Below are positions 1,806 to 19,519 of a DNA stretch of 23,207 bases, piece after piece. The notes under the pieces are model-generated. The model ran no database searches and was not told the DNA's origin. It worked only from the letters and a program-made list of their open reading frames with translations. Numbering within the stretch: the first letter of the stretch is position 1; every line of letters begins with the position of its first letter. This DNA comes from a virus: IMG/VR virus record IMGVR_UViG_3300010403_000056, positions 1-23,207 of that record. The stretch is one strand, 5' to 3'. The translations under genes and the position numbers were made by a program.

Positions 1806-1834
1806 TTGTCACCCCCTGTTTTCAGGGGTAGGGT
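1806..1834 (+). promoter_or_regulatory. Palindromic-spacer promoter, copy 1 (DUF932 gene)
   Basis: -35 TTGTCA at 1806-1811, a 17-nt spacer CCCCCTGTTTTCAGGGG that is itself an inverted repeat, and a -10-like TAGGGT at 1829-1834. It lies 21 nt after the preceding stop. The leader to ATG 1884 is about 45 nt and contains gaggag. The -10 departs from the TAACAT of the other intergenic copies. Promoter activity is inferred from spacing and recurrence. Confidence 0.7.
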
Positions 1835-1883
1835 TCTAGTTGTAAGGAATAAGGACCCGAGTACCGCACCCGAGGAGATCGCA

Positions 1884-2912
1884 ATGCACGCCTTCGAGAC
1901 TGGCTTCTGCGTCCGGCAACCGAGCTGGCACGGGCAAGAAACCCTGCTGACCGAGGACCAGCGACCCCGCACCTGGAAAGAGGCGCGCAAGGTCGCCGGC
2001 TTGGACTGGGAGCCGATCGTGGAACCCATGTACGTGCGGGTCCTGACCGGTGTGGACGCTGAGGGCAACCCCACCTACGACTATCGAGAGGTGCCCAACT
2101 TCCAGACTATCCAGCGCGACAGCGATGGCTCGGTTCTGGCCGCCGGCCGCGACAGCTACGAGGTCATCAACAACACCCAGATGGGCGAGATCTTGCACGC
2201 GCTCACCGACAAGACCGAGCTGGAGTACGAGACCGGCGGGTCGGTTCGTGAGGGTCGCTCGGTGTGGGCGCTGGTCCGGCTCGGCCCCGACGTGATGATC
2301 GGCAACGATCCCAGTCCGACGCGGCCCTACATGGGCATCGTGAACCACTTCGACAAGACCGGCGCCTGCCGGGCCTACGCCACGGACATCCGGATCGTGT
2401 GCTGGAACACCATGAGCGCCGCCGACGCCCAGGCCGACCGCGACAACACGGTTGCCGTGTTCCGTCACACCAGCAACTGGCGCGACAACCTGGAAGCCGC
2501 CCGCCAGGCGATCCTGGGCGCGCAGTCCGAGTTCGACGAGTGGAAGAAGATCGCCGAGTTCCTGATGGGGACCACGGTGACCGAGGCGCAGGCTGAGGAC
2601 TTCGTCCAGGAGTTCATGCCCTATCCCGGCAGCGTGACGACCACCATCACCGAGCGTGTCAAGACCAATATCGACACCGCCCGCATGGAGCTTCGGACGG
2701 TCCTGCACAGCAGCAAGACCACCGACGGCATCCGGGGCACCGCGTACTGGACGGTCCAGGCCGCGGCCGAGTACCTCGACCACCTGCGCCCGATTCGCAA
2801 GCAGGAGGCCTACGTGCGCCGGACCGTGATCGACCCGAATCCCGGCAAGGCCTTGGCGATCACGAAGATTGCAGCGATCACGGGGATCAAGGTCCCGATG
2901 CTGACTCGATAA
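1884..2912 (+). CDS. DUF932 / TIGR03299 phage-plasmid-like protein
   Basis: Encodes 342 aa; ATG 1884 has gaggag 7 nt upstream. Earlier in-frame starts run through the promoter and were rejected. The sequence matches the DUF932/TIGR03299 pattern: PSWHG near the N-terminus, KVAGLDWEPIVEP, a tyrosine-containing SYEVINN, a GGSVREGRSVWALVRLG strand, RIVCWNTM near the middle and FRHTSNW. This family is common in actinophages and conjugative plasmids, and its biochemical role is unsettled. It has its own palindromic-spacer promoter. The last codons (KVPMLTR) are duplicated at 3202-3226, so the original gene end and terminator appear to have been separated by an insertion. Confidence 0.88.
   Translation: MHAFETGFCVRQPSWHGQETLLTEDQRPRTWKEARKVAGLDWEPIVEPMYVRVLTGVDAEGNPTYDYREVPNFQTIQRDSDGSVLAAGRDSYEVINNTQMGEILHALTDKTELEYETGGSVREGRSVWALVRLGPDVMIGNDPSPTRPYMGIVNHFDKTGACRAYATDIRIVCWNTMSAADAQADRDNTVAVFRHTSNWRDNLEAARQAILGAQSEFDEWKKIAEFLMGTTVTEAQAEDFVQEFMPYPGSVTTTITERVKTNIDTARMELRTVLHSSKTTDGIRGTAYWTVQAAAEYLDHLRPIRKQEAYVRRTVIDPNPGKALAITKIAAITGIKVPMLTR
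2887..2911 (+). repeat. 25-bp direct repeat, copy A (end of DUF932 gene)
   Basis: Begins tcaaggtcccgatgctg and runs to the stop codon of the DUF932 gene. It matches 3202-3226 at 24 of 25 positions. The distance between copies is 315 bp and encloses one small gene. Confidence 0.9.
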
Positions 2913-2966
2913 CGCGCGGGTAGTGGCTGTCCGCTTGCCGGCTAGTCGGTTGGATGAGAGGTTTCC

Positions 2967-3197
2967 ATGACCGGCAAGATCACGCGTCGACTGTTGGACG
3001 CTGGCTGGCAGCGCATCAATCTGCCCGCCAGGGCAATCGACCAGTGCGGATCCGTGTCAAATGCGGCGACAGGAACCGGCTGGTGTACACACCCGGCCCG
3101 TTGGCGAAAACTGGTGGTGACCCGCAGTGCGCTGTGTGCTGACCATGCATTACGGGCCGAGGTGGCCTACCAGTTGACGCGCGGACGGCCTTCGTGA
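2967..3197 (+). CDS. Small Cys/His protein inside a duplication-flanked insert
   Basis: Encodes 76 aa; ATG 2967 has gagagg about 6 nt upstream, better than the overlapping 62-aa frame at 2954. C27, C40-x-H42 and C57-x2-H60 could form a zinc site, and the rest is basic (ARWRKLVVTRS). It lies between two copies of the DUF932 gene's 3' end, so it was probably inserted together with that duplication. No family recognised. Confidence 0.65.
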   Translation: MTGKITRRLLDAGWQRINLPARAIDQCGSVSNAATGTGWCTHPARWRKLVVTRSALCADHALRAEVAYQLTRGRPS

Positions 3198-3201
3198 CGA
3201 T

Positions 3202-3226
3202 TCAAGGTCCCGATGCTGGCTCGATA
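3202..3226 (+). repeat. 25-bp direct repeat, copy B (displaced DUF932 gene end)
   Basis: Near-identical to 2887-2911, with one A-to-G change. In frame it would read KVPMLAR before a TAG stop, so it is a second copy of a DUF932 C-terminus with no gene attached. The terminator hairpin follows directly, which suggests this was the ancestral gene-terminator junction. Confidence 0.9.
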
Positions 3227-3238
3227 GCTTTCTCCCTG

Positions 3239-3279
3239 AGTCCGGACCCCGCCCTTTCCCGGAAGGTGGGGTCCGGACT
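3239..3279 (+). terminator. Hairpin terminator after the DUF932 unit
   Basis: A 12-bp perfect inverted repeat has arms at 3239-3250 and 3268-3279 (core GTCCGGACCCC / GGGGTCCGGAC) and a 17-nt loop. No T-run follows, as is common in actinobacterial phages. The right arm touches the -35 of the next promoter. Confidence 0.8.
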
Positions 3280-3307
3280 TGTCGCCCCCCGTTTCAGGGG
3301 GTAACAT
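3279..3307 (+). promoter_or_regulatory. Palindromic-spacer promoter, copy 2 (HNH unit)
   Basis: -35 TTGTCG at 3279-3284, a 17-nt spacer CCCCCCGTTTCAGGGGG, and -10 TAACAT at 3302-3307. A start site 7-8 nt beyond the -10 would fall on the A of ATG 3315, giving a leaderless message. The terminator stem ends at the first base of the -35. Confidence 0.75.
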
Positions 3308-3314
3308 GATGCCT

Positions 3315-3644
3315 ATGCCGAGCAGAGCCACAGTGACCACCCCCGTACGACGCGGCACCAGCAACCGCAACATTCGGGGCTCCAGCAAGGACCGGGCCGC
3401 GCGGAGACTGTGGTTGGTCAACACGTTCGGCGACGGCGAGTTCGTGGACTGCCAACTGCGGGCCACGCCGGACTGCTGGGTCGCCATGACGCAGTGGACG
3501 GTCTCGGCCGACCGCATCGTTCCCGGCGCCCTGGGTGGCAGCTACCGACGTGGGAACATCCGCCCCGCGTGCCCGCCTTGTCAATGTCGTACAGGCGGCC
3601 TGCTTGGCGCCAGCCAGGCCAAGGCGAGGAGCCAAGCGCCATGA
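3315..3644 (+). CDS. HNH endonuclease-like protein
   Basis: Encodes 109 aa from ATG 3315; ATG 3306 and 3309 are in-frame alternatives but overlap or abut the -10. The core reads ADRIVPGALGG (residues 65-75), then N81, and C86-x2-C89, with C46 and C54 earlier. This is the actinophage HNH layout, with two Cys pairs holding a structural zinc around a beta-beta-alpha metal site. The usual first catalytic His position is Asp66 (DRIVPG), so activity is uncertain. The family nicks or cuts DNA and often sits beside terminase genes, but none is found here. It overlaps the next gene by ATGA. Confidence 0.75.
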   Translation: MPSRATVTTPVRRGTSNRNIRGSSKDRAARRLWLVNTFGDGEFVDCQLRATPDCWVAMTQWTVSADRIVPGALGGSYRRGNIRPACPPCQCRTGGLLGASQAKARSQAP

Positions 3645-3937
3645 CCGACGTGGTGCGGTACGGGTATGCCGAGCTGTCGGTGCCGACGGGGGCAACCGCA
3701 GTGGGCTGCCGGCGCTGTCACCGCGTGTTCGTCAGCGACCGGTCGCACATGGCCGCGGCCGGCTTCTGCATGATGTGCCGGCCGTTCATTACGGTGGCCT
3801 GCCGCTTCTGCGGAGAGCGATGCCCCGGTCGCTACGACGGAGACGAGTGCTGCCAGGCCCATCGCGCCATGCCGGCCGAGGAGTTGCAGCGAACCTTCCC
3901 GGATGCACCGCCCGCGCTTGTCGCTCGACCCAATTGA
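3641..3937 (+). CDS. Tandem zinc-ribbon protein, unknown function
   Basis: Encodes 98 aa from ATG 3641 (ATGA overlap with the HNH gene). There are two likely metal sites: C23-x2-C26 with C43-x2-C46, and C54-x2-C57 (plus C61) with C70, C71 and H74. The C-terminus is a short helix and a Pro/Ala tail. The coupling suggests co-expression with the HNH protein, perhaps acting on the same nucleic acid (inference). No specific family recognised. Confidence 0.75.
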   Translation: MTDVVRYGYAELSVPTGATAVGCRRCHRVFVSDRSHMAAAGFCMMCRPFITVACRFCGERCPGRYDGDECCQAHRAMPAEELQRTFPDAPPALVARPN

Positions 3938-3958
3938 TCACCAGCAGGGAGATCCGAC

Positions 3959-4171
3959 ATGACTGCCCCCGAAGCGCCGCAATTCATTGCCCAACCCGAC
4001 TACCTGCGATACCGCGAAGCGCGCGACTTGTCGAGACACCTGGCCGTCACGCGGAGTGTCGCGGGAGACTTCGCCCGGCTACCGCTGTGGGCCCAGCTTG
4101 AGATGAACTACATGGCCTCGATCATCCTGGTCGCAGGTCCGGGAGGGCTGTCCGATGACCACCGTCGCTGA
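3959..4171 (+). CDS. Small protein of unknown function
   Basis: Encodes 70 aa; ATG 3959 has gggaga about 8 nt upstream. The middle looks helical (YLRYREARDLSRHLAVTRS) and the end is moderately hydrophobic (MASIILVAGPGG). The last 17 nt overlap the next gene. No family recognised. Confidence 0.65.
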   Translation: MTAPEAPQFIAQPDYLRYREARDLSRHLAVTRSVAGDFARLPLWAQLEMNYMASIILVAGPGGLSDDHRR

Positions 4172-4349
4172 GCCCTATGTGCCGGCTCCCGGCGACCGTG
4201 TCGAGGTATGGGGCTACGACGCGGTGCAGTGCACCGCCGTTGTGGACAGCCCGACCGAGCGTGATTACTGGATCATCACCGAGGACGGGACGGGGCAGAC
4301 CTACGCGGCCCCGACGAGCTTTCTCACCAAGATCGAGGAGGGCCCATGA
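4155..4349 (+). CDS. Small beta-rich protein, unknown function
   Basis: Encodes 64 aa. VPAPGDRVEVWGYDAVQC followed by an alternating-hydrophobic stretch and DYWIITEDGTGQTY suggests a small SH3-like beta barrel. This is inferred from pattern only. The first 12 nt of the gene (atgaccaccgtc) are identical to those of the next gene. The stop overlaps the next ATGA. Confidence 0.7.
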   Translation: MTTVAEPYVPAPGDRVEVWGYDAVQCTAVVDSPTERDYWIITEDGTGQTYAAPTSFLTKIEEGP

Positions 4350-4603
4350 CCACCGTCTACGAGCCGCCAGACCTCACCGGTACCGCGATCACCTGGGGCG
4401 ATGAGCCCAGGTACCACGGATCCGAGTACCGAGAGTATGTCTACCCCGGTCGCCGGGTGGCCTCGATTCCCGGCCGGGCGTGGCCGAACACGCCCGAGAG
4501 GTGCGAGATCGCCGACGAGTTCCAGCCTGGTCACCGGGAAACTGAGTGGCTGGCCGGCGGCAACCTACTGGTGTGCATCGGCTGCGGACTGGATGTGACA
4601 TGA
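4346..4603 (+). CDS. Small protein with C-terminal Cys pair
   Basis: Encodes 85 aa. A Tyr-rich N-terminal half (RYHGSEYREYVYPGRR) precedes a possible metal site formed by C, H and C-x2-C (PERCEI, GHRE, VCIGCG). The codons for GNLLV near the C-terminus are part of a 17-nt exact match with the gene at 8792. It is joined by ATGA overlaps on both sides. No family recognised. Confidence 0.7.
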   Translation: MTTVYEPPDLTGTAITWGDEPRYHGSEYREYVYPGRRVASIPGRAWPNTPERCEIADEFQPGHRETEWLAGGNLLVCIGCGLDVT

Positions 4604-4854
4604 GGAGCAACCTCACCCCACTGGCCCGGAGGCTCACGGAAGCAGCCGCGATCGGCATGGCCGGCGAATCTGAAGCCGACGATCACCTGCGCGGCTGGAC
4701 CGGCCGGGGACTTTCCGGAGATGCGAGCGCCGCCGTGGTCGCCGTACTGCGGGAGCTGGCCGACGAGCACACGTCCCGGGACGGGAATTGGCTCGCGATC
4801 CCCCCGCCGATGCTCATCGGGTTGGCCGACTCCATCGAGAAGGGAGAGGGGTAG
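4600..4854 (+). CDS. Small helical protein, unknown function
   Basis: Encodes 84 aa from ATG 4600 (ATGA overlap); the longer in-frame GTG at 4546 lies inside the previous gene and was rejected. The protein is mostly helical and Ala/Glu-rich (RRLTEAAAIG, VVAVLRELADEH). Its start resembles that of the gene at 277 (TPLA-x-RL), with a shared 14-nt stretch. The stop directly abuts the next ATG. Confidence 0.7.
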   Translation: MRSNLTPLARRLTEAAAIGMAGESEADDHLRGWTGRGLSGDASAAVVAVLRELADEHTSRDGNWLAIPPPMLIGLADSIEKGEG

Positions 4855-5064
4855 ATGGGTGAGCCTCAGGTTGACAGCAGGCGTGGCGCACGGGCACGGG
4901 CACGCGTCCGTCACCCCGGCAAGAACCTGACCGAGTATCTCTGTCCAGTGTCGGAGGGTTGGCACATCGGGAACCTGCCCGCCGGCGGTCGGGACGAAGC
5001 TCGTCGAATTCAGGCGTACAAAGCCGTGAAGGCGCGTTCGTCGAACCTGGTCGAGGAGCTGTAG
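4855..5064 (+). CDS. Small basic protein, unknown function
   Basis: Encodes 69 aa. It starts directly after the upstream stop, with gggagagggg at the end of that gene as ribosome site. The N-terminal 25 residues are Arg-rich (RRGARARARVRHPGKN); the remainder is mixed (EYLCPVSEGWHIGNLPAGG). It could bind nucleic acid, but no family is recognised. The stop TAG shares its G with the next GTG start. Confidence 0.65.
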   Translation: MGEPQVDSRRGARARARVRHPGKNLTEYLCPVSEGWHIGNLPAGGRDEARRIQAYKAVKARSSNLVEEL

Positions 5065-5525
5065 TGGCTGTAGGTGCCGGTCAACTCCGCGTGGACAACC
5101 GCGCGGAGTTCGAGGCGCTGCTGGACTGGCTCAGTGAGCCACCCTCCCTCGGCGCGCAGTACCCCCGGTTGATCGAGACTTTCGCGGTGTCCGGCTCGCG
5201 CGAGTGGGCCGACCCGCGGCCAGTGCACTATGTCCTGTGGCACATGCCGCACAGCGCCACCATGTTCCATGGCGCGGCGCGGGGTTTCGATCGCATCGCC
5301 GCCGCGTACTGGACCAGTCTTGGCGGCCTGGTACGCGACTTCCCCGTCTCCCGCGAGCGCTGGAACGAGCTGGGCAAGCGTGCGGGGCACCTGCGCAACG
5401 AGCACATGCTCAACCACATGCCAGCGTGCCTGATCGCCTGCCATCTGGGGGATTCACCCGGTACCGCCGGAGCTATCGCCTACGCCAAGAAGCTGGGTAT
5501 CCCCACGTTCGTGTTTCGATCCTGA
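5064..5525 (+). CDS. YspA/DUF2493-type SLOG-fold protein
   Basis: Encodes 153 aa from GTG 5064, which overlaps the upstream stop; an in-frame extension back to 4959 overlaps the prior gene and was rejected. It carries the cpYpsA-related SLOG pattern: a first strand with SGSREWAD (about residues 38-45), HGAARGFDRIAAAY, then GKRAGHLRNEHM and a final GTAGAIAYAKKLGIPTFVF. In the SLOG superfamily the Gly-rich loops bind a nucleotide or nucleotide-derived ligand. Phage members are usually annotated DUF2493, with roles proposed in nucleotide sensing or processing. The ligand cannot be told from sequence. Confidence 0.85.
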   Translation: MAVGAGQLRVDNRAEFEALLDWLSEPPSLGAQYPRLIETFAVSGSREWADPRPVHYVLWHMPHSATMFHGAARGFDRIAAAYWTSLGGLVRDFPVSRERWNELGKRAGHLRNEHMLNHMPACLIACHLGDSPGTAGAIAYAKKLGIPTFVFRS

Positions 5526-5534
5526 GAGGAAGTC

Positions 5535-5873
5535 ATGCGCTCAGCCCTAGACCCCCACCTCGCCGACGAGATCTTCCAGCACGCGTGCGCGGCCGGGGAG
5601 AAAGCCGCCGACGAGGCACTGGAGCGGCATCTGCTTGTGGCAGGCGAATCGGGGGGTTGCTACGACGTTGCCCACCTGGTCGCCGAGGTCGTCAACGCGG
5701 CGCTTCAGGAGGCGGGGAGGCGGATGGTCACCCTGATCCCCGGCAATCCCTGCCCACCGGGCGCCACGACCTACGGCTACATCACCGCGGTCAACGATGC
5801 CACTCACGTGCTGGGTGCGTGCGAGCATCACCGGAGTGAACTGCTGGCCTTGCGCCACGCCCGGCGCAAGTGA
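5535..5873 (+). CDS. Small protein of unknown function
   Basis: Encodes 112 aa; ATG 5535 has gagaggaag about 6 nt upstream. The N-terminal 65 residues look helical (LADEIFQHACAAGEKAADEAL, VAEVVNAALQEAGRRM), followed by a Pro/Gly-rich segment (PGNPCPPGATTYGY) and a basic C-terminus (ELLALRHARRK). Scattered Cys and His (HAC, CEHH) could bind a metal. No family recognised. Confidence 0.7.
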   Translation: MRSALDPHLADEIFQHACAAGEKAADEALERHLLVAGESGGCYDVAHLVAEVVNAALQEAGRRMVTLIPGNPCPPGATTYGYITAVNDATHVLGACEHHRSELLALRHARRK

Positions 5874-6049: not shown

Positions 6050-6052
6050 GAT
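6020..6052 (+). promoter_or_regulatory. Divergent palindromic element, copy 3
   Basis: The 17-nt palindrome CCCCCAATGGACAGGGG occupies 6030-6046. In place of TTGTNN upstream there is ATCTTG, and in place of TAACAT downstream there is TGAGAT. A TACAAT hexamer, close to the sigma-70 -10 consensus, lies just upstream at 6020-6025, so the palindrome may act downstream of a promoter rather than in its spacer. It lies at the end of a coding region. Confidence 0.4.
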
Positions 6053-6227: not shown

Positions 6228-6249
6228 CGCGCTACCACACTAGGCTTCG

Positions 6250-9870: not shown

Positions 9871-12435
9871 ATGCCCCTGCTGGGATCACGCAAGCGCAAG
9901 CCGCGGCCGGCACTGACCGCCTCCGGCGAGCGCATCGACCTGCTGGATCGGACGCTGCCGGAGCGCATCCGACGCCAGCGCGGACCGTGGCAAGGGCAGG
10001 CGTGGAACTATCGGGAGCTGATCGGCGAGTTGGGCGGGGGCATCGAGGCGGAGGCCAACGTCATCAGCAAGGTCCAGTTCATCGCGGGCCAGGTCACCGA
10101 CGAGGACGAGCCGCTACCCGTCACCAGTGAGGACTGCGACCTTCCCGACCGGATCAAGCACGCCGCACAGGAAGCCCTCGACGCCTTGCCTTTCCGTAAC
10201 GGATACGCGTTTCAGGGCGTGCTGTCGGTGTGTCTACGGGTGGCCGGAGAGTGCTGGCTGCACGGGCGCACCAAGGACGGCCGCGAGGATTGGCGGGTCC
10301 TGAGTAGCGACGAGGTCCAGCCGTGGAATGCCGGCCTGGGGATCATCGAGATGCCCGGCATGCCGCCGGCCGCCGTGGGCAAGGACGAGGTGCTGCTGCG
10401 ACTGTGGAAGCCGCATCCCCGCTGGAAGCAGCTCGCCGACTCCCCGATGCGCCGGCTGCTGGACACGTGCGAAGACATCGTCCTGATCGGTCGGGAGATC
10501 CGGGCCGCATCGCGCTCGCGCATCGCGGCCAACGGCATCCTGCTGATTCCCCTGGGCATGTCGATCGTGCGCAAGCCGGACGGTGCCGCCGACGACTTCC
10601 AGTCCCAGCTGGAGGCGGTGATGCTCTCGCCGATCGGCAACGAAGGCGACGCGGGCGCCGTCGTGCCGGTGGTGCTGCAGGGCGACCCCGAGGATCTGGA
10701 GAAGGTTCGGCACCTCACGCTCCAGCGCGAGGACAGCGAAGAGTTGATCAACAAGCTCCAGGCCGCCCTGCAACGGCTGCGTGAGGGCATGGACATGCCG
10801 CCCGAGACCGGCACCGGGGTCGGGGACATGAACCACTGGTCCGCGTGGCTGATGGACTCGACCCGGTTCAAGAGCTACATCGAGCCTCAGGTGCGGTTGA
10901 TCGTGGACTCCCTGACTGAGGCTTACCTGCGTCCGAGCCTGATGCAACCGGTCACGAGTGGCGGATGGGGTCTGACCCGCGAGGAGGCCGACCAGGTCCA
11001 GGTCTGGTACAACGCGGGCAACGTCACGGAGAACGCCAACCGCGGCACCGACGCCAAGGACGCCTACGACCGCGGCGAGCTGAAGGGTTCGATACTGCGC
11101 CAGTCCCTGGGATTCAGCGAGGACGACGCTCCCGACGATGACGAGCTGCGTCGCATGTTCGCATGGAGGCTGGGCGCCGATCCGCAGACCGCCGCACGGC
11201 TACTGGCCACCGTGCTCGGTCCGGACTCGGGCATTCAGATGATCCAGCCAGGTGCTGGACCTGTCAGCATTGAGCAGCCCCCCGACGCCGCACCGGCTAC
11301 GGGGGGACCTGGTCGGGTGCCGACGGCCCCTGCTCCGCCGGCACCCGATGGAACACGCGTGGCTAGTGCGGCACCCGTTGAACCTGGGGCACGTGTGGTC
11401 ACTGGGGACGAGTTGGCGGAGATCGAGCGGTCACTGCGGGAGCGCCTCGCCGTAGCCTGCGACATGGCCCTAGTCCGCACGTTGGAGCGCGCGGGCGCCA
11501 AGGTACGTGCTGCCGCTCAGCACACCTCCCTGGCCGCCGAGCTGAAGGGCCTGGAGCCCCTGGCGGTGTGCCCCCTGGTTGTCGAGCGCGCCGGAAACGG
11601 GCCGGTGGCGCTGATGGAACTGGGCCTGAGCGAGGACTCACTCCTCGGCGAGGCGTTCACCGCACTGCGGGACAAGTTCACCCGTTGGAGCACGGACGCC
11701 ATCAAGGCCACCGTCCGCACCCTGGCATCCACCCTCGACATCCCGCTCACCGCGGTCTCGGCGCTGGCCCAAACCATGACGAGTCGAATCGACACCGCGT
11801 GGAAGGGGCTGGAGGAGACCCTGCGCAGGCGGGCCCTCCGCAAGCTGTACGGCCTCGCCGAGGATGAACTGCGAGGAGAAGTGCCCGACTCCATCGTGTT
11901 ACCCGGCGAGATCCGCACCGTACTGACCGAGATCGGCGGCCTGCCCCCCGGCGGGGTCAGGGAGGACGGATCCCCCGTTCGGTCCGACGAGACGCTGGGC
12001 GGGCTGGCGACTGGCCGCGACGTGATGGCCCTGGCGCGGCAGCACGCTGATCACCTGGGTTTCGTGTGGAAGTACGGCGTCACCCCGCGCGGGCGCCAGT
12101 TCGAGCCGCACCGCAAGCTCAACGGCGAACGGCTGAGCGGCTGGAATGACGCGGCCTTGGCGCCGGCCGGTGAGATGGCTTGGGTGGGGCCGCACTATGC
12201 GCCTGGTGACCACGCTGGCTGCGCCTGTGACTACGTCCCCGTCTGGGCTTTGCCGGAAGCTCGGGAGCTGGCTGAGGGGATCGCCATGGATGAGCGGCCG
12301 AGTATGCGCTCAACGCGGGTGCTGGCTGATCTCGACACCGCCGTCGGCCGTCGCGGCACCGTCACGCAGACCACTCGAGCGCAGGGGGATCGCGTCGTGG
12401 CCCTGCAACGAGAGTGGCTGGAGAGGACAAAGTGA
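9871..12435 (+). CDS. Portal protein fused to MuF-like head protein
   Basis: Encodes 854 aa; ATG 9871 has aaggggtgagg upstream. Residues 1 to about 455 are portal-like: an N-terminal region with NVISKVQFIAGQV, then KPHPRWKQLADSP (from residue 180) and a helix ending SRIAANGILLIP. A Pro/Ala-rich linker follows at 459-510. Residues about 520-854 resemble a MuF minor head protein, with HLGFVWKYGVTP (728), EPHRKLNG and a closing GDHAGCACDYVP. The portal is the dodecameric DNA gate at the capsid vertex, and MuF-type domains sit inside the head in early assembly. These parts are more often separate genes. The gene end carries copy A of a 40-bp repeat. Confidence 0.93.
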   Translation: MPLLGSRKRKPRPALTASGERIDLLDRTLPERIRRQRGPWQGQAWNYRELIGELGGGIEAEANVISKVQFIAGQVTDEDEPLPVTSEDCDLPDRIKHAAQEALDALPFRNGYAFQGVLSVCLRVAGECWLHGRTKDGREDWRVLSSDEVQPWNAGLGIIEMPGMPPAAVGKDEVLLRLWKPHPRWKQLADSPMRRLLDTCEDIVLIGREIRAASRSRIAANGILLIPLGMSIVRKPDGAADDFQSQLEAVMLSPIGNEGDAGAVVPVVLQGDPEDLEKVRHLTLQREDSEELINKLQAALQRLREGMDMPPETGTGVGDMNHWSAWLMDSTRFKSYIEPQVRLIVDSLTEAYLRPSLMQPVTSGGWGLTREEADQVQVWYNAGNVTENANRGTDAKDAYDRGELKGSILRQSLGFSEDDAPDDDELRRMFAWRLGADPQTAARLLATVLGPDSGIQMIQPGAGPVSIEQPPDAAPATGGPGRVPTAPAPPAPDGTRVASAAPVEPGARVVTGDELAEIERSLRERLAVACDMALVRTLERAGAKVRAAAQHTSLAAELKGLEPLAVCPLVVERAGNGPVALMELGLSEDSLLGEAFTALRDKFTRWSTDAIKATVRTLASTLDIPLTAVSALAQTMTSRIDTAWKGLEETLRRRALRKLYGLAEDELRGEVPDSIVLPGEIRTVLTEIGGLPPGGVREDGSPVRSDETLGGLATGRDVMALARQHADHLGFVWKYGVTPRGRQFEPHRKLNGERLSGWNDAALAPAGEMAWVGPHYAPGDHAGCACDYVPVWALPEARELAEGIAMDERPSMRSTRVLADLDTAVGRRGTVTQTTRAQGDRVVALQREWLERTK

Positions 12436-12740: not shown

Positions 12741-13039
12741 GGCCGAGCGTGGGGCGAATCGTCCACTACGTGTCGTACGGGACCCCTGGCGGGGAGTACA
12801 CCTCGCAGTGTCGGGCGGCGATCGTGACCGAAGTACCCAACACGAACTTCGGAGAAGGTGAGGAGAACATCGGCCTCGCGGTGCTCAACCCGACCGGGCT
12901 GTTCTTCCACTCGATCGCCGACGGGGGCTGCGACTACGACGAAGGCGGGACGGGCGTTGACCACTCCGGCGAGCCGATCCCCGCGCGCTCGTACCACGGT
13001 GGTACCTGGCACTGGCCGGAGAGGATCGAAGATGGCTGA
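12737..13039 (+). CDS. Small head-region protein, unknown function
   Basis: Encodes 100 aa from ATG 12737 (ATGA overlap); the in-frame extension to 12659 was rejected. VGRIVHYVSYGTPGGEY, CRAAIVTEV, LAVLNPTGLFFHS and the end GGTWHWPERIEDG form a recognisable small protein that occurs in many actinophages beside structural genes. It looks like a compact beta protein. Its role is unknown. Confidence 0.82.
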   Translation: MRPSVGRIVHYVSYGTPGGEYTSQCRAAIVTEVPNTNFGEGEENIGLAVLNPTGLFFHSIADGGCDYDEGGTGVDHSGEPIPARSYHGGTWHWPERIEDG

Positions 13040-15272
13040 CGAGTCGCACACCGGCGGCATGATCGCCCTCGTCCCCGAGTCACCCGGCAAGCTCACCGTC
13101 CCCGGTGGCTATCCCGCGAGCGAGATCCACCTGACATTGGCTTACCTGGGTGACGCGCTGGACCAATGGGCCCAGACGGTCACCGATGAGATCACCGCTC
13201 TGGGTGCCAGGGTGGCCGCCGACTTCGCACCACTGGAGGCCCAGATCATGGGGTACGCGGTGTGGAACCCCGACGGCGGGCCGGACGGGTCCATGCAACC
13301 GTGCGCGGTCTACGAGCTGGCCGACGACCCGCTGCTCTCGGAGATGCACGAGGTCGCGTGCGGAAGCTCGCGGGAAATCATCGGCACCGGGTTGTGGCCC
13401 GACCAGTTCCCGGTCTATGAGCCGCACGTCACCGCGGGCGAAGGCATCGACACCTCCAGTATGAAGGCCACGGGGCCGATCCGGTTCACCGCGCTGCGGG
13501 TGGCCCTGGCCGGCTCAGTGACCGACTACCCGCTGAGTGGCACCCGTGGTGCGGGTGACCCGATGGTCGCGGGGTACGACAGTGAAGGGATCGAGACCAT
13601 GGCCGAGACCACAGTGGATCAGGCCAAGGCGGGCGAGGCCGAGGTCATCGAGAAGGACGGAGAACTTCAGCTGCACTGGCCGTGCCTGGTGCTGGAGGGC
13701 ATCCGGACCGGGGACGGCCGGTTCATTCCCTACGGCTCGCTGGGCGCGCGGGGCCTGCCCCTGCCGGTGGCTGGACAAGTCACCAACGACGAGGGGCACA
13801 AGGGTGCCGAGGTGTTCGGCAAGATCACCAAGCTGGAGCGCCACGAAGGTCCCACCGTGACGAGTAAGGAGACCGGCGAGCCGTTCGCCGAGGGCACCGC
13901 GGTCTGGGAGGCGTGGGGTGTGGGTGACCCCGATTCCCGGCCCGGCCAGCTCGCGGCCAAGGGCTACCTGATCGGCAACAGCGCGGACATCGCCGACGCC
14001 ACAGTCGAGGACAGCCTGGCCGACGGGCACCCGACGCGCTCCTTGGTGGGTGGCAACATCGGCGGCACCACGCTGGTGCCGATCCCCGCCTTCGCCGACG
14101 GCTTCGTGGAAGTCAACGGCAAGCGGTTGGATGCCCAGCCCGCGGTCGCCCCGATCGCCGCCAGCGCGGCCTGGACCATCACCGACACCCCTGCGGCCCT
14201 GGTGGCCAGCGTGGAAGACCTGCCTCCGGTCGAATGGTTCACCGACCCCAAGTTGCCGGCACTGACCCCGCTGACCCGTCAGGGCCGACATGTGTTCGGA
14301 CACGTCGCCGACTGGAACCGGCCGCACATCTCGTTCAACGGCGCGCCGATCCACGCCGCGCGCTCCCGCGCTGACTACAAGTGGTTCCGCACCGGGAGTT
14401 ACCCGGCGGTGGACGCGGATGGCACCGAGCGTCAGGTGGGCGTGGGTCGGCTGACTATCGGCAGCGATCACGCGCCAGGCCATCTCAACCACCGGGAGGC
14501 GCAGCGTCACCATGCCGACGAGTCGCTGTGCTGGGCTTACGTGGCCGCTGGCGGGGATGAGTTCGGGATTTGGGTCAACGGGGTGATCAAGGATGATGCC
14601 GACGAGTTGACCGTCCGCAAGGCTTTCGCCCACCCACCGTCAATCGACCAGCGGCCCATTGACGGGCACCTCGAGCTGTCGGCAGTGCACTGCGTCAACA
14701 CCGCGGGCATCCCGATCCCCCGAGCGCGGGTCGCCAGCGGGGAGATCGTGTCCCTGATCGCTGCCGGCTACGTCCCGCCGGCCGCTGACAATCCCGACGC
14801 GCTGGCCGAGGCGGTGGCCGAGCGAGTGCTGGCCGGGTTGATCGAGCACTTCAAGTCGGCGCCGGCCGAACCGTCGCTGGCGCAGCGCCGAGACGATGCG
14901 GTGCTCTCGCTTCGGGCCAGCGGCCTGGTCGAGGAGTTGGGGCTCCCTTTTCCCATCGGTGACGACTGGAAGGGGAGTCTGACCAACCTCGACCAGGAGG
15001 ATTGGGCCGCGCTGGAGGAGCTGACCGGCTACCCGGTGCAGGAGCTGAAGACCCTGCACATCCCGCCGTACATGAAACGCATCGAGAAGCACCTGATCGC
15101 CAAGGGCATGTCCGAGTCACGGGCGATCGCGACCGCGGTCAACGCGGCCAAGAAGATGTGCAGTACCGGCGATGTGTCGTGGCCCGGCCGGCAGCAGATC
15201 AACGCGGGCAGTAGAGCCGAGGCGTGCGCGGCGGTGGCGCAGTGGCGTAAGGACCGGCCGGGGGCGACATGA
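13032..15272 (+). CDS. 2H phosphoesterase-capsid maturation protease fusion
   Basis: Encodes 746 aa from ATG 13032, overlapping the prior gene by 8 nt. Residues 1 to about 190 have the two H-x-T motifs of the 2H phosphoesterase (2'-5' RNA ligase-like) fold: H33-L-T35 in EIHLTLAYLGD and H132-V-T134 in YEPHVTAGEG. From residue 211 (HWPCLVLEGIRTGDGRFIP) the sequence resembles actinophage capsid maturation proteases. A further domain spans about 417-570 (GHVADWNRPHISF, then GIWVNGVIK, ELSAVHCVNTAG). A C-terminal module has RIEKHLIAKGMSESRAIATA and ACAAVAQW. The protease part would process the scaffold-fused capsid protein encoded at 20602. The substrate of the 2H domain is unknown. Confidence 0.85.
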   Translation: MADESHTGGMIALVPESPGKLTVPGGYPASEIHLTLAYLGDALDQWAQTVTDEITALGARVAADFAPLEAQIMGYAVWNPDGGPDGSMQPCAVYELADDPLLSEMHEVACGSSREIIGTGLWPDQFPVYEPHVTAGEGIDTSSMKATGPIRFTALRVALAGSVTDYPLSGTRGAGDPMVAGYDSEGIETMAETTVDQAKAGEAEVIEKDGELQLHWPCLVLEGIRTGDGRFIPYGSLGARGLPLPVAGQVTNDEGHKGAEVFGKITKLERHEGPTVTSKETGEPFAEGTAVWEAWGVGDPDSRPGQLAAKGYLIGNSADIADATVEDSLADGHPTRSLVGGNIGGTTLVPIPAFADGFVEVNGKRLDAQPAVAPIAASAAWTITDTPAALVASVEDLPPVEWFTDPKLPALTPLTRQGRHVFGHVADWNRPHISFNGAPIHAARSRADYKWFRTGSYPAVDADGTERQVGVGRLTIGSDHAPGHLNHREAQRHHADESLCWAYVAAGGDEFGIWVNGVIKDDADELTVRKAFAHPPSIDQRPIDGHLELSAVHCVNTAGIPIPRARVASGEIVSLIAAGYVPPAADNPDALAEAVAERVLAGLIEHFKSAPAEPSLAQRRDDAVLSLRASGLVEELGLPFPIGDDWKGSLTNLDQEDWAALEELTGYPVQELKTLHIPPYMKRIEKHLIAKGMSESRAIATAVNAAKKMCSTGDVSWPGRQQINAGSRAEACAAVAQWRKDRPGAT

Positions 15273-15976: not shown

Positions 15977-15982
15977 CGGCGA

Positions 15983-16011
15983 GTTGTGCCCCCCTGATCC
16001 GGGGGGTAACA
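15983..16011 (+). promoter_or_regulatory. Palindromic-spacer promoter, copy 4
   Basis: -35 TTGTGC at 15983-15988, a 17-nt spacer CCCCCTGATCCGGGGGG and -10 TAACAT at 16006-16011. It begins 7 nt after the preceding stop. The leader to GTG 16047 is about 30 nt and holds gaggag. Confidence 0.78.
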
Positions 16012-16046
16012 TGAAGTCACACATCACCCGACCGTGAGGAGATCGC

Positions 16047-16571
16047 GTGCTACCCCTGATCGTCATCGGTGCGGATGAACGCACCCGCGAGGCTGTCACT
16101 TCGGCATTGAATCTGGTGGGGCTACCCTCGCCGTTCAAGTGCCTGCACATGGACTACGAGGACATCGCTCAGGCTTCCTGCAGCCTGAGTGATGCGTTGC
16201 GGTGTGAGCGCGACAGCCCGGGCACCTTCACTCGATATGTCGAGTTCGACGACGAGCGCCCGGGCTGGAAGGCGAGTGTCGCCTACGGCCCGAAGGCGTT
16301 GGGACCGGCGACCGTAGCCCAATCGTCGCGACTCGCTCACACCGGCTGGACCCTCGTCCTGGCGTGGGGCGCTCCCGACCTGTCAGCCCCACGCCGCGTG
16401 ACTGAAGGCGTGGCCGAAGGTGCCGACCAGTCCAGCATCGCATGGCAGGCCGCGCCGATGCTGGGGGCCAACTTCCTAGTGGACCTGTCCGCCGAGGATC
16501 CGCGCGGCAAGCTGCGCTATCCCGGTCTGGTCACCGTGCTTACCCAGATGCGAGAGAGAGTCGAGCCATGA
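16047..16571 (+). CDS. Protein of unknown function, first gene of accessory block
   Basis: Encodes 174 aa; GTG 16047 has tgaggag about 7 nt upstream. The first strand and helix (LPLIVIGADERTREAVTSAL) look like the start of a Rossmann-type alpha/beta fold, and later segments are ASVAYGPKALG, WTLVLAWGAPDLS and a C-terminal helix. No P-loop or other catalytic motif is visible and no family is recognised. It is driven by the promoter at 15983. Confidence 0.72.
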   Translation: MLPLIVIGADERTREAVTSALNLVGLPSPFKCLHMDYEDIAQASCSLSDALRCERDSPGTFTRYVEFDDERPGWKASVAYGPKALGPATVAQSSRLAHTGWTLVLAWGAPDLSAPRRVTEGVAEGADQSSIAWQAAPMLGANFLVDLSAEDPRGKLRYPGLVTVLTQMRERVEP

Positions 16572-16867
16572 ACCTTTTCGACAACGTGATCTCCGGTCTG
16601 GTCGCCAAGGGCGAGGCCATAGTGGTCGGTAACACGCCGGCTCAACCTGTGACCGATTGGGGCGCCTCTCCGAGCTTTGCCCGCTGGTACGGCGAAGTCG
16701 TTGTGGGCCGCAACGTAGATGGTGGCACGGAGACCGATTACCACTACGGCTACTCCAACGACGAGGACCCCAACGTGCACGACCTCGTGCCGGAAGGCTG
16801 GGACCTACTGGAGGAGACGCTCAACGAGATCAAGCCGCCCGGCACGAAGGGCTGGCTGGATGAATGA
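16568..16867 (+). CDS. Small acidic protein, unknown function
   Basis: Encodes 99 aa from ATG 16568 (ATGA overlap); the extension back to 16442 lies inside the prior gene. ISGLVAKGEAIVVGNTP and FARWYGEVVVGRN suggest strands, followed by an acidic loop (YSNDEDPNVHD) and a helix (WDLLEETLNEI). No family recognised. Confidence 0.7.
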   Translation: MNLFDNVISGLVAKGEAIVVGNTPAQPVTDWGASPSFARWYGEVVVGRNVDGGTETDYHYGYSNDEDPNVHDLVPEGWDLLEETLNEIKPPGTKGWLDE

Positions 16868-17268
16868 TCGATGACGACCGCACTCCGCAAGAGATCGAGT
16901 ACGCGAGAGTTATGCAGGAGCCATTCGAGCCCGACGAAGATCCACTGGAGGGCTGGAACCACGCGAAGGCGATTCGGGACGCGTTCGACCGCGAGGATCG
17001 CCTGCACGGCGTGGTGCGTCGTCAGGAACTGGAGGGCACCTGGCCGGCGATCGAGCCGAGTGAGAACCCCGGCTACCTAGAGCCGATCCCGTGCAGCAAC
17101 CATGGCGTCCACTCCGAGCACGTTTGGGAATCGACCCGATGGGGCAGCGTGGAGTGCCTCGGCGTGGGCGGACCTGACCAATGCTCACTGGGCGTCCCCA
17201 ATGCCTACGGCTCGGCACCGGAGCGGTGCGCTTTGCCGAGTGGCCACGAGGGGGTATGTAAGCCGTGA
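16864..17268 (+). CDS. Small Cys/His-rich protein, unknown function
   Basis: Encodes 134 aa (ATGA overlap). The N-terminal half is acidic and helical; the second half carries PCSNHGVHSEHVW, two further Cys, and a closing ERCALPSGHEGVCKP. The C-x-LP-x-GH motif is also seen in the gene at 277. Metal binding is likely but unproven. The stop overlaps the next GTG start. Confidence 0.7.
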   Translation: MIDDDRTPQEIEYARVMQEPFEPDEDPLEGWNHAKAIRDAFDREDRLHGVVRRQELEGTWPAIEPSENPGYLEPIPCSNHGVHSEHVWESTRWGSVECLGVGGPDQCSLGVPNAYGSAPERCALPSGHEGVCKP

Positions 17269-17447
17269 GGACCATCGTGAAGCTCCTTCGTGGCATGAAG
17301 GAAACGGTGTACGACGAGATGGACCTGCCGTATATCCCCGAAGGTGCGCTCCTAAGGACGCCGCACGTCGCTTCTTGCCGAGTGGTGGTCAGTGCCATCG
17401 ACATCGCGCCCGCATCCGGCCCCATTCAGACACTGGTCGTGCAATGA
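17265..17447 (+). CDS. Short protein (60 aa), unknown function
   Basis: GTG 17265 overlaps the previous stop (GTGA) and the stop overlaps the next ATGA. The protein reads MRTIVKLLRGMKETVYDEM, then a Pro-containing loop and a hydrophobic strand (CRVVVSAIDIA). No family recognised. Confidence 0.65.
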   Translation: MRTIVKLLRGMKETVYDEMDLPYIPEGALLRTPHVASCRVVVSAIDIAPASGPIQTLVVQ

Positions 17448-17677
17448 CCGAGGAGCGTTGTGGAACGACTGAGCTGCTGGTCTCCGCGTGCGGGTGCCCA
17501 CAGCACCGTGGCGGCCGGACCCCGCAGGAGGAAGCCGACACCGATCGGCAACCTGGCCCGTGGTTCGTGGCCAGCTACGCGGGCGTGTGCAGCAACGACA
17601 GCGAGGGCGTGCACTACTTCAACCCTGGCGAGTACGTCCGGGCCGACGGCCGCGGCGGCTGGGAGTGTCACGAGTGA
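17444..17677 (+). CDS. Small Cys/His protein, unknown function
   Basis: Encodes 77 aa from ATG 17444; the in-frame extension to 17102 lies inside other genes. ACGCPQHRGG (C16-x-C18-x2-H21) near the start and WECHE at the end could share a metal ion. The middle is WFVASYAGVCSNDSEGVHYF. No family recognised. Confidence 0.68.
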   Translation: MTEERCGTTELLVSACGCPQHRGGRTPQEEADTDRQPGPWFVASYAGVCSNDSEGVHYFNPGEYVRADGRGGWECHE

Positions 17678-18027
17678 CCAAGCCGACGCGAGCACAGAAG
17701 CATGCCGAGCTGGATGGCATACCGCGGTGCGAGTTCTGCCGGGAACGGATCCGCTGGGCCTTCCCTGTCCCGTCACCCAAGGCGCGTTCGGAGGCCGGCA
17801 AGAAGCCCAAGCCGATCCCCCTGGACTACGAGCCTGACCCCTTGGGTCGGTACACCCTGTACGACGAGGGCGGCCGGTCCATGGTCGGCGAGTTGACCCG
17901 TGGGCAACACAGGGGGTGGCTGGAGGCGGGCAAGCCCACCTACCAGCGACACTTCCGCACCTGTGTCAAGAAAGATGAGTGGGGCAAACTGGGTAAGCCA
18001 TACGGCACTCGCCAAGTCACGCGGTGA
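17674..18027 (+). CDS. Small zinc-binding-type protein
   Basis: Encodes 117 aa from GTG 17674 (GTGA overlap). C19-x2-C22 near the N-terminus and a late HFRTC could form one zinc site around a Lys/Pro-rich middle (ARSEAGKKPKPIPLDY). The layout recalls small nucleic-acid-associated zinc proteins, but no family is recognised. Three nucleotides separate its stop from the next promoter. Confidence 0.7.
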   Translation: MTKPTRAQKHAELDGIPRCEFCRERIRWAFPVPSPKARSEAGKKPKPIPLDYEPDPLGRYTLYDEGGRSMVGELTRGQHRGWLEAGKPTYQRHFRTCVKKDEWGKLGKPYGTRQVTR

Positions 18028-18030
18028 TGG

Positions 18031-18059
18031 GTGTGCACCCCCGACAAAGGGGGTAACAT
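18031..18059 (+). promoter_or_regulatory. Palindromic-spacer promoter, copy 5
   Basis: -35-like GTGTGC at 18031-18036, a 17-nt spacer ACCCCCGACAAAGGGGG and -10 TAACAT at 18054-18059. It begins 4 nt after the preceding stop. The leader to ATG 18108 is about 42 nt. Confidence 0.75.
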
Positions 18060-18107
18060 CGGTCCGTCCACATGCTTCAAACTGCTCGAGCCCCAGGGGG
18101 CAAATCC

Positions 18108-18446
18108 ATGAACGGTCCAGACCCGGTCCAGGGTGTCGCGGTAGGCGAAGGGGTACCACGACGGCGGCGCGAGCACCTCGCTGAGGTCAGCCGAGAGGCC
18201 GCTGAAGCTCCCGAGGGTTTCGAGCCCGCCAACATGGCTGACCGGTTCGTCAGCGTTCCGCTCGCCTTGCTCGGCTGGGTCGGCCGCGGGGACTTCGAGG
18301 GGTTCGAGTACCGCTGGGTGTGCATCATCACCGACCCTGGCAGCCTGCAGCGATGCGGAACGATCGGACGGGCGGACACCGAGGAGGAGGCCATCAGCGG
18401 CTTGACCATCCACATCTGCCACGACCACGGAGGCTTGCCCGAATGA
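18108..18446 (+). CDS. Small protein of unknown function
   Basis: Encodes 112 aa from ATG 18108, with caggggg about 8 nt upstream. ATG 18072 is in frame (124 aa) but lies only a few nt from the predicted transcription start. A basic, helical N-terminal third (VPRRRREHLAEVSREAAEA) leads into a compact domain with Trp and Cys (LLGWVGRGDFEGFEYRWVC, HICHDHGG). No family recognised. Confidence 0.68.
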   Translation: MNGPDPVQGVAVGEGVPRRRREHLAEVSREAAEAPEGFEPANMADRFVSVPLALLGWVGRGDFEGFEYRWVCIITDPGSLQRCGTIGRADTEEEAISGLTIHICHDHGGLPE

Positions 18447-18730
18447 CCGCGATGACCCGCGAGGAGATGCTCCAGGCGCTTGCCAGGCATGGCGAGAACC
18501 CGCACGTCGACTACGACGACAACGACGAGACGGTGGGGCATCTCGGCTGGTTGGTTGAGCCGACTGGGTCCGGTGAGGCCGTTCTATCCGTGACGTATGA
18601 GGACACGAAAGAAGGCACCGGCCCCGTGCTGACCCTGAAATGGCGCATGGTTCCCATGGGCTTGCCCACCCCGTTCGTCCCGGTCAAGCAGCCGGTCACC
18701 GTGGACTTCCCCGAGGGCGGACGCGCGTGA
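18443..18730 (+). CDS. Small acidic protein, unknown function
   Basis: Encodes 95 aa from ATG 18443 (ATGA overlap). It begins TAMTREEMLQALARHG, followed by an acidic run (HVDYDDNDETVG) and strands (GEAVLSVTYEDTKEG, PVLTLKWRMV). No family recognised. Its stop overlaps the next GTG. Confidence 0.7.
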   Translation: MTAMTREEMLQALARHGENPHVDYDDNDETVGHLGWLVEPTGSGEAVLSVTYEDTKEGTGPVLTLKWRMVPMGLPTPFVPVKQPVTVDFPEGGRA

Positions 18731-19353
18731 GCGAACTGGGCACGCCACTGTCCGATGAGCCACTGCGGATCGACTGGGGGCAAGGCACTGACGGGGAGGG
18801 GATGCCTGTCGATATCTCGTGGTGGGCGCCGACCACCGCAGCTCACGGCGGCCGGCGCAACACTCGCGTGGTGATCGCCAGTAACGGCTACATGTACACG
18901 TTCAACTCGCGAGGCTCCTACACCGGCACGGTGAGTGTCCGTGAGTCGTGGCGCAGCAACCTGGGTGGATCCGAGTTCTGGCCGCTGACGCGGAGGACAC
19001 TCACCGTAGGGCTGTGGCTTGACGCCGATCGCATCCGGCCGTCGCGCACCATCCTGGCTATGGCTAATGGAATGCTCGGCGTGACAGACCGTACTGACAG
19101 TGACCAGCGGGGTCGGTCGTGGCGCGTGGCCCATGCCTGCTTGCTGCTCGGTTTCTCCCCGCCCTTGGGGCTGGACTTCGGGGACATCGCCACAGCGTTC
19201 GCCGAGGGCGTGGGGGAGTGCGGTGACCGCGCCGCCCGACGCATCAAACGAGCGCTACTGTCCAGGCTGGCTATTGAGCGCCGGGCCCGGCGTGCCGAGG
19301 CCGAGCGCGAGGTGCGCCAGCGTGCCGAGACGATCGAGAGGTGCTGGCGGTGA
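18727..19353 (+). CDS. Protein of unknown function with basic C-terminal helix
   Basis: Encodes 208 aa from GTG 18727 (GTGA overlap). The first 80 residues look beta-rich (NTRVVIASNGYMYTFNS, GTVSVRESW). A middle segment has HACLLLGFSPPLGLDF. The last 45 residues are a long Arg/Glu helix (RRIKRALLSRLAIERRARR) that may be coiled coil. It is the largest gene of the accessory block. No family recognised. Confidence 0.72.
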   Translation: MSELGTPLSDEPLRIDWGQGTDGEGMPVDISWWAPTTAAHGGRRNTRVVIASNGYMYTFNSRGSYTGTVSVRESWRSNLGGSEFWPLTRRTLTVGLWLDADRIRPSRTILAMANGMLGVTDRTDSDQRGRSWRVAHACLLLGFSPPLGLDFGDIATAFAEGVGECGDRAARRIKRALLSRLAIERRARRAEAEREVRQRAETIERCWR

Positions 19354-19484
19354 GGCGTTCACCGTGGCCAGAGGACGGCCTGGCGTTCAAGGTGTGGTTC
19401 GTGATCGCGGCACTGCTCGGCCTGGCGGTTGCGGGGGTGTTCGTGTGGGCTGCGATCAAAGTTGTCCTGTTTGTGACCGGTTGA
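19350..19484 (+). CDS. Short single-span membrane protein (44 aa)
   Basis: GTG 19350 overlaps the previous stop (GTGA), and the frame ends at TGA 19482-19484. Residues about 14-41 are a hydrophobic span (FKVWFVIAALLGLAVAGVFV followed by WAAIKVVL) after a charged N-terminus (MRRSPWPEDG), so the N-terminus is probably cytoplasmic. Overlap plus a clear membrane helix support coding. Confidence 0.68.
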   Translation: MRRSPWPEDGLAFKVWFVIAALLGLAVAGVFVWAAIKVVLFVTG

Positions 19485-19490
19485 CATCAC

Positions 19491-19519
19491 TTGTTGCCCC
19501 TGCTGACGGGGGGTAACAT
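19491..19519 (+). promoter_or_regulatory. Palindromic-spacer promoter, copy 6
   Basis: -35 TTGTTG at 19491-19496, a 17-nt spacer CCCCTGCTGACGGGGGG and -10 TAACAT at 19514-19519. It begins 7 nt after the preceding stop. The leader to ATG 19550 is about 25 nt and holds gagagg. Confidence 0.78.

Follow-up and report, generated by a model that had tools for sequence, protein, structure and literature searches.

Near-identical palindromic start signals, repeated ahead of small gene blocks in what we take to be an uncultured family of actinobacterial viruses, point to one viral protein that may control many of these blocks at once. In the window, the whole 23,207-nt stretch of viral DNA analysed here, five sites with palindromic spacers lie between genes on the plus strand and align without gaps. 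On sequence grounds, they are best read as promoters whose spacer would hold the operator of a dimeric repressor. The explanation as a whole, which combines sigma promoters, a spacer operator and one phage dimeric repressor, seems to us reasonably probable.

Five sites in the window

Site 1 (1806–1834, plus strand), read directly from the sequence, comprises the -35 hexamer TTGTCA (1806–1811), the spacer CCCCCTGTTTTCAGGGG (1812–1828, palindrome CCCCTG-TTTT-CAGGGG) and the -10 hexamer TAGGGT (1829–1834). It heads a gene for a DUF932 protein (1884–2912, plus strand; Pfam PF06067, E=8e-44), whose orthologues in relatives also have a related site upstream. Site 2 (3279–3307, plus strand; TTGTCG / CCCCCCGTTTCAGGGGG / TAACAT) follows a separate plus-strand hairpin with an 11-bp stem (GTCCGGACCCC...GGGGTCCGGAC, 3240–3278), which by its sequence is the probable terminator of the upstream unit. 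The gene behind site 2 encodes an HNH endonuclease (3315–3644, plus strand; PHROG 960 HNH endonuclease, E=8e-22) and is probably leaderless, with its ATG (3315) placed 8 nt past the -10 box.

Site 3 (15984–16012, plus strand; TTGTGC / CCCCCTGATCCGGGGGG / TAACAT) starts one position later than the 15983 first assigned to it, and the plus-strand gene behind it (16047–16571) has a GTG start and a GAGGAG ribosome-binding site. Site 4 (18031–18059, plus strand; GTGTGC / ACCCCCGACAAAGGGGG / TAACAT) has a weaker -35 box and precedes a plus-strand gene (18072–18446) whose start codon is uncertain (18072, 18108 or later). Site 5 (19491–19519, plus strand; TTGTTG / CCCCTGCTGACGGGGGG / TAACAT) opens a unit that extends into the major capsid gene, with its own first plus-strand gene (19550–19852) beginning 31 nt after the -10 box.

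The five gapless sites of hexamer-spacer-hexamer form described in the initial annotation are present. Allowing up to three mismatches, the pattern gives six matches in the window, including the reverse strand of site 5, while dinucleotide-preserving shuffles yield an expectation of 0.01. The four exact TTGnnn-N17-TAnnnT pairs in the window all carry a palindrome in the spacer. A stop codon precedes the sites by 3–21 nt, or else, as at site 2, the GGGGTCCGGAC terminator stem (3240–3278) comes immediately before.

Promoter anatomy across related phages

A motif search of related phages recovered 183 distinct copies in 31 IMG/VR records, counts that are inflated by the kinship of these records. 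Each genome of about 60 kb holds roughly 8–17 copies. The initial annotation had held that copies found equally often inside genes and in both orientations would speak against a regulon; instead, 165 of the 183 are intergenic and 178 point the same way as the next gene. Its proposal of a promoter with a built-in operator, shared across a phage-wide regulon, is supported by the relatives. Orthologues of the gene at 16047 have an upstream palindromic promoter in 14 of 14 genomes, with the arms kept while loop and flanks drift. In phage L187, which was found by protein rather than by motif, all six promoter-like pairs in a 20.6-kb locus are palindromic. A search of annotated phages for near matches to the whole window found none.

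The carrier lineage apparently consists of lytic actinophages. No Phage_integrase match occurs in the 31 records and no Resolvase (serine recombinase) match in 17, complete genomes included, and an immunity operator of a temperate phage was rejected on these grounds, which would still allow lysogeny of the partition type.

A spacer of exactly 17 nt, as first described, holds in the window and gives way in the family to two lengths, 17 bp at 121 distinct sites and 18 bp at 57. Across these sites, TTGnnn and TAnnnT, 17 or 18 bp apart, are conserved outside the palindrome. The -35 box varies among TTGTnn, TTGCGT and TTGACA, and the -10 box among TAACAT, TAAGAT, TACGAT and TAGATT. The inner letters differ from site to site but TTG, TA and the last T do not, a pattern shared with sigma-70 promoters. 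An ATG or GTG also stands 7–8 nt past the -10 box in 64 of 183 sites, against a baseline of 0.0067 per offset (about 1.2 sites expected at each offset), and these start codons would mark a leaderless +1 position. With hexamers at sigma-70 spacing and an intergenic, gene-facing position, the sites are very likely promoters of the sigma-70/HrdB (SigA) type. No Sigma70_r2 match, and so no phage sigma factor of this kind, was found in these phages.

The palindrome accompanies nearly every such promoter. Arms of at least 4 bp occur in the spacers of 151 of 166 intergenic TTGnnn-N17/18-TAnnnT pairs, compared with 11.5% for random spacers. Phage phiAsp2 has 22 promoter-like pairs, 20 of them intergenic, and none of those 20 has a palindromic spacer. 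The phiAsp2 genome is similar in size and has a distant portal match.

The spacer palindrome and its alternative readings

In the main group, the palindrome has the form C6-N5-G6 and fills the 17-bp spacer, with half-site centres 11 bp apart. Its dyad symmetry and half-sites about one helical turn apart agree with the operator of a dimeric repressor. Polarity is fixed, with the C-run on the left and the G-run on the right in 139 cases and the reverse in none. A sister group has different arms, CCCAY..RTGGG, with paired changes. In the 18-bp sites, positions 10 and 20 swap jointly between C-G and A-T, so that 52 of 57 are complementary, compared with 28 expected. These sequence patterns make it likely that the spacer palindrome is a protein operator. 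Of the 181 distinct intergenic palindromes of C5+/G5+ type that the main group contains, 46 lack a clear promoter; some of these are probably terminators, and C-run/G-run hairpins thus also occur away from promoters. A G-quadruplex was dismissed, as a site offers no more than a single run of G and a single run of C.

The hairpin might instead work as RNA that ends or caps the transcript arriving from upstream, with the flanking hexamers initiating the following one. Such a composite would suit the 141 of 182 sites that stand behind a co-directional gene, often less than 20 nt from its stop codon, and the promoterless C/G hairpins that also sit between convergent genes (7 of 46). However, arm length hardly differs between divergent (mean 5.63, n=41) and co-directional gene pairs (5.76, n=141), TTTT lies within 8 nt in only 4 of 183 sites, polarity is fixed although an RNA hairpin would work either way, and site 2 is already preceded by a separate terminator hairpin. 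We consider the composite quite improbable. A simple intrinsic terminator, meaning a hairpin and T-run behind genes, was rejected in view of the divergent sites, the missing T-runs and the fixed polarity; of the gene pairs with promoter-flanked palindromes, 36 are divergent and 3 convergent. DNA shape is also changed by runs of C and G, and MerR-type activators twist long spacers. It is nevertheless improbable that the C-run/G-run geometry raises or tunes transcription, whether with a phage factor, a host factor or none: many -35 boxes are weak (TTGTGT), which would suit activation, but the spacers have the optimal 17 or 18 bp, many copies carry the consensus TTGACA, and the paired changes at positions 10 and 20 point to a symmetric protein site.

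That the copies are short, repeated and dispersed could suggest a small mobile repeat without function or a GC-rich pattern that arose by chance. This has a negligible probability given the shuffle expectation and the gene that keeps its site across 14 genomes, and the copies are not recent duplicates, since their loops and flanks differ. A further question is whether a host repressor recognises the operator, or a phage protein other than the candidate discussed below, such as WhiB or the winged-helix family G004_23549. Winged-helix and WhiB genes are indeed widespread in these genomes; WhiB occurs in 13 of 31 records, and the window has a WhiB-like gene (1195–1488, plus strand; PF02467, E=3e-19). 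Yet scanning 84,980 prokaryotic genomes for near-exact copies of the motif gave a single MAG contig, so hosts apparently do not use the whole element, and no similarly constant place behind a palindrome is seen for the winged-helix gene. The initial annotation had suggested the WhiB-like or a zinc-finger product. WhiB is not the general factor, because the complete or near-complete motif-bearing genomes G006, G012 and G013 lack it, and no zinc-finger candidate emerged. A reader of this other kind is therefore rather unlikely. Besides the winged-helix family, a conserved DNA-binding HTH protein of replication shares the same genomes.

Candidate regulator and comparable systems

For the preferred reading, a dimeric phage repressor at the spacer operator, the leading candidate is a tandem ribbon-helix-helix (RHH) protein. 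AlphaFold2 models of both of its subfamilies predict the beta-alpha-alpha motif; in the candidate it occurs twice, with pLDDT about 90 in those elements. Foldseek matches it to F-plasmid relaxosome chains with a probability of up to 0.98 and more weakly to AvtR, and its PHROG 'Arc-like repressor' matches are weak (E=0.08–0.26). No sequence homologues were found in annotated phages or in the PDB. A palindromic promoter lies directly upstream of its gene in 18 of 18 records and in three contigs found by protein, 21 phages in all; the -35 box stands at 19 bp in 5 of the 18 sites. The sister group with different arms has diverged tandem-RHH homologues. About ten other genes per genome also stand behind palindromic promoters, which means that the RHH protein cannot be picked out by position alone. 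Judged from its predicted fold and place, its role as the regulating factor falls just short of an even chance.

Under this model, the host's principal sigma factor would use each site as a promoter, and a phage-encoded dimeric DNA-binding protein would occupy the spacer and block RNA polymerase at some 8–17 promoters at once. The computations show the family, its promoter anatomy and leaderless +1 signal, the fixed polarity and paired changes of the palindrome, and where the candidate lies and how it is predicted to fold; from these we infer protein binding, repression rather than activation, which factor acts, and the timing of such control. One factor would then set many small-gene units, including the one with its own gene, and the likeliest factor would be the tandem RHH protein, at the head of a recombination/replication operon. 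More tentatively, and somewhat below an even chance, these lytic actinophages may place most of their recognisable promoters under one autoregulated tandem-RHH repressor whose operator replaces the spacer, with protein and arms changed together between sister groups at no fewer than ten sites per genome.

Several known systems share parts of this design. The F-plasmid relaxosome chains (entries 9f0x–9f12), unnamed in the Foldseek output, are presumably TraY-type tandem RHH proteins; they and AvtR (4hv0) have the fold arrangement predicted for the candidate, without detectable sequence similarity to it, and we know of no role for them at phage promoters of the present kind. At the Pant promoter of phage P22, the operator of the RHH repressor Arc lies between -35 and -10. 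By analogy, an RHH operator inside the spacer may likewise act by repression; unlike that single promoter, the present case involves about 8–17 per genome, another operator and, as candidate, a fused tandem RHH chain. L5 stoperators are repressor sites that are also dispersed and oriented in short genomic gaps. They are asymmetric and mostly promoterless, whereas each copy here makes up an entire promoter and is symmetric at its centre, in phages in which no integrase was found.

The closest comparison is with ESAS of cluster K mycobacteriophages, a pair of imperfect inverted repeats of about 17 bp that reaches from -35 to beyond -10 and is usually accompanied by SAS (GGGATAGGAGCCC) before the start codon (PMC3203893; PMC11373665). 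Both families are dispersed, intergenic and in one orientation, with SigA-like boxes at 17–18 bp, a built-in inverted repeat and small genes downstream, and the roles of both are putative. In Adephagia, by contrast, the arms lie on the -35/left-spacer side and the -10/downstream side and together span about 46 bp, and its nine promoter-like pairs in the 39.6 kb examined include no spacer palindrome of at least 4 bp; the palindrome described here lies wholly within the 17-bp spacer and is unrelated in sequence. No GGGATAGGAGCCC-type leader was seen before the listed main-group genes, and the SAS-like leader of the sister group is a different one, GGGAAGGACC. By geometry and sequence, the family thus falls outside ESAS of the Adephagia type. 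The contrast with ESAS drawn earlier stands in these respects but was overstated, given that a later description presents ESAS, too, as SigA promoters containing inverted repeats (PMC11373665).

Cluster O mycobacteriophages have many 17-bp dyad repeats per genome and predicted leaderless SigA promoters (PMC4351075), and cluster EG Microbacterium phages have many 18-bp repeats (PMC7302621). As far as the available portions of these reports go, both resemble the present family in their many short, dyad-symmetric, operator-like copies, but their repeats are not described there as promoter parts, whereas nearly every recognisable promoter here carries the palindrome. In Corndog, 10 of 34 copies lie mid-gene or in the 3' part, and orientation seems irrelevant in that same available text (PMC4351075).

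Promoters are poorly mapped in actinophages, and what their dispersed repeats (SAS/ESAS, cluster O repeats) do has been a question since at least 2011. Here, a single sequence predicts where transcription starts, contains a putative operator and comes with a named candidate protein, and therefore a two-plasmid reporter test can decide. If the explanation is true, these phages would possess a regulon of lytic phages in which many promoters are under repressor-like control, and would offer naturally matched variants of operator and protein as a series.

The sites as predicted promoters

The 23-kb record is probably a fragment of an actinophage genome. It encodes a portal protein (9871-12435), a head maturation protease (12858-15272) and a major head protein (20602-22377), together with holin, WhiB and DUF932 genes. 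The head protein shares about 36% identity with its counterparts in Gordonia, Arthrobacter and other actinophages, and no near match to the window was found among annotated phages. All five elements proposed in the initial annotation are present (1806, 3279, 15984, 18031 and 19491), the third having been placed one base early, at 15983; like every called gene in the window, they lie on the + strand. A pattern built from them has six matches at up to three mismatches, one being the fifth site on the reverse strand, against 0.01 expected from dinucleotide-preserving shuffles. Small-gene blocks with promoters of their own occupy 15984-19519, downstream of the protease gene and ahead of the major head protein gene, and regulon units thereby break up the head operon. 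Directly before the major head protein gene, 19896-20426 gives a weak match, below its cut-off, to Invasin domain 3 (PF09134), and it may encode a head decoration protein.

Scanning IMG/VR for exact matches to two motif versions gave 13 and 61 stretches, and the records examined are the window plus thirty of those behind these matches. A head-protein family is shared by 20 of them, and most have head, tail or replication proteins in common, so they form one lineage of about 58-61-kb phages. Identical ends, as in circular assemblies, indicate that related records G004, G005 and G006 (127 bp) and G013 (80 bp) are probably complete genomes. Altogether 183 distinct sites were collected, with 8-17 per near-complete genome, mostly on the strand bearing most genes (split 11:1 in G004, 1:14 in G005 and 8:0 in G006). 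In G005, one divergent gap holds a back-to-back pair of these promoters, at 38194(-) and 38198(+), with a separate palindrome for each. The sole motif match in prokaryotic genomes, L110 (PQAK01000172.1, 7189 bases), is a short contig in a Deltaproteobacteria MAG and probably a mis-binned actinophage contig.

Outside the palindrome, the conserved letters are TTG on the left and TA...T on the right, across 121 sites with the 17-bp spacer that the initial annotation had taken as fixed and 57 with 18 bp. The remaining letters vary (TTGTGT, TTGCGT, TTGACA; TAACAT, TAAGAT, TACGAT, TAGATT), and this free variation is the informative part, since site collection demanded most of the conserved ones. Judged from sequence, it is the pattern of a sigma-70 promoter rather than of a fixed repeat. 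In 64 of the 183 sites, the -10 is followed by a start codon at an offset of 7-8 nt (baseline 0.0067 per offset), the +1 position of a leaderless message, so these codons mark the expected transcription start; because genes were called with a simple purpose-written caller, start codons are approximate. At most of the remaining sites, the gene is preceded by a leader of about 28-50 nt that contains a ribosome-binding site. Copies spread equally through genes and orientations would have spoken against a promoter family, as the initial annotation noted; instead, 165 of 183 are intergenic, though the larger genomes are more than 90% coding, and 178 precede a same-direction gene. The sites are predicted promoters.

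The spacer palindrome as a putative operator

The palindrome is closely tied to these promoters. Among the 166 intergenic TTGnnn-N17/18-TAnnnT pairs, a count that covers the window but not G027, 151 have arms of 4 bp or longer in the spacer, compared with 11.5% of same-composition random spacers and 0 of 20 intergenic promoter-like pairs in the comparison phage phiAsp2. Records were picked by motif, a choice that adds no more than one or a few seed sites per record; in the 20.6-kb locus L187 (G032), found via protein alone, 6 of 6 pairs are palindromic. The control phages Clawz, Chunky, GMA2, Phendrix and Adephagia show at most scattered three-mismatch matches. A palindromic promoter precedes the orthologues of window gene 16047 in 14 of 14 genomes, 34-50 nt upstream where measured, with arms kept while loop and flanks drift.

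In the main group, the palindrome is C6-N5-G6, two 6-bp half-sites 11 bp apart on the same helix face; in the sister group (G012, G013, G015, G032) it reads CCCAY...RTGGG. The 18-bp class shows C-G and A-T swapping together at pair 10/20 (52 of 57 complementary versus 28 expected). A terminator is rejected on three grounds. The C-run lies left and the G-run right 139 times and the reverse 0 times, although either polarity would serve an RNA hairpin. Arms are equally long at sites with a divergent upstream gene, which have no incoming transcript to terminate, and only 4 of 183 sites are followed by a TTTT run. The gene pairs around promoter-flanked palindromes are divergent in 36 cases and convergent in 3. 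The operator reading in the initial annotation is supported, and the palindrome is best read as a putative operator for a symmetric protein, which, bound to the spacer, would exclude RNA polymerase.

Promoterless C/G hairpins make up 46 of the 181 intergenic ones in the same genomes, 7 of the 46 lying in convergent-gene gaps, and some of the 46 probably act as ordinary terminators. The gaps between co-directional genes in several relatives (G014:20433, G017:12605, G021:25351, G022:8585, G024:423) contain long hairpins that lack a promoter, ACTCACCCCCC...GGGGGGTGAGT, which are probably terminators as well.

A candidate DNA-binding factor

WhiB, suggested earlier as a possible factor, fails as a general one: 13 of the 31 records encode it, but G006, G012 and G013 (all 58-59 kb) lack it. 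Searches for a tyrosine integrase (31 records) and for a serine recombinase or a sigma factor (17 records) found none, so the phages look lytic and appear to use host sigma. A predicted tandem ribbon-helix-helix (RHH) protein offers another candidate. Its gene heads a recombination/replication operon adjoining a divergent HNH gene. In most relatives this HNH endonuclease gene (L043:17173-17571 and orthologues) is the neighbour, with a palindromic promoter between the two.

AlphaFold2 models show beta-alpha-alpha twice (pLDDT about 90 in those parts), and the nearest Foldseek structures are F-plasmid relaxosome chains (probability up to 0.98, E about 0.1), which we take to be TraY, a tandem ribbon-helix-helix protein; AvtR matches more weakly. 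Two family members match the PHROG 'Arc-like repressor' below threshold, and no homologue is detectable in annotated phages. In 18 of 18 records a palindromic promoter immediately precedes the gene, which is mostly leaderless, and in five of them the -35 is at 19 bp; three more contigs found by protein search show the same arrangement. The sister group, with its other operator arms, has a diverged homologue at the same position (profile E 1.5e-4 to 2.8e-3) that retains both units plus an insert. In most main-group members the second-unit strand has RIRF plus a following R, K or S, and its sister-group counterpart is LRFT; arginines at alternate positions might suit a G-run. Because other conserved DNA-binding proteins are present in these genomes, the RHH protein is a tentative choice, falling a little short of an even chance of being the factor.

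Relation to known phage elements

Mechanistically, the arrangement resembles the P22 Pant promoter, within which the Arc operator is located. The nearest known kind is the ESAS of cluster K, dispersed SigA promoters of unknown function with an inverted repeat (PMC3203893, PMC11373665); in Adephagia, the ESAS arms leave the middle of the spacer free and are found over the -35 and past the -10. The repeats of clusters O and EG are dyads for which the available text of the reports describes no promoter link (PMC4351075, PMC7302621). Between promoter and start codon, G012, G013 and G015 (L120-L125, L129-L131) and L187 carry a second conserved leader, GGAACAACCC...GGGAAGGACC, like the start-associated sequence GGGAAAGGACCCC of Microbacterium cluster EF phages. 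The spacer-palindrome promoters are new as a variant, not as a category.
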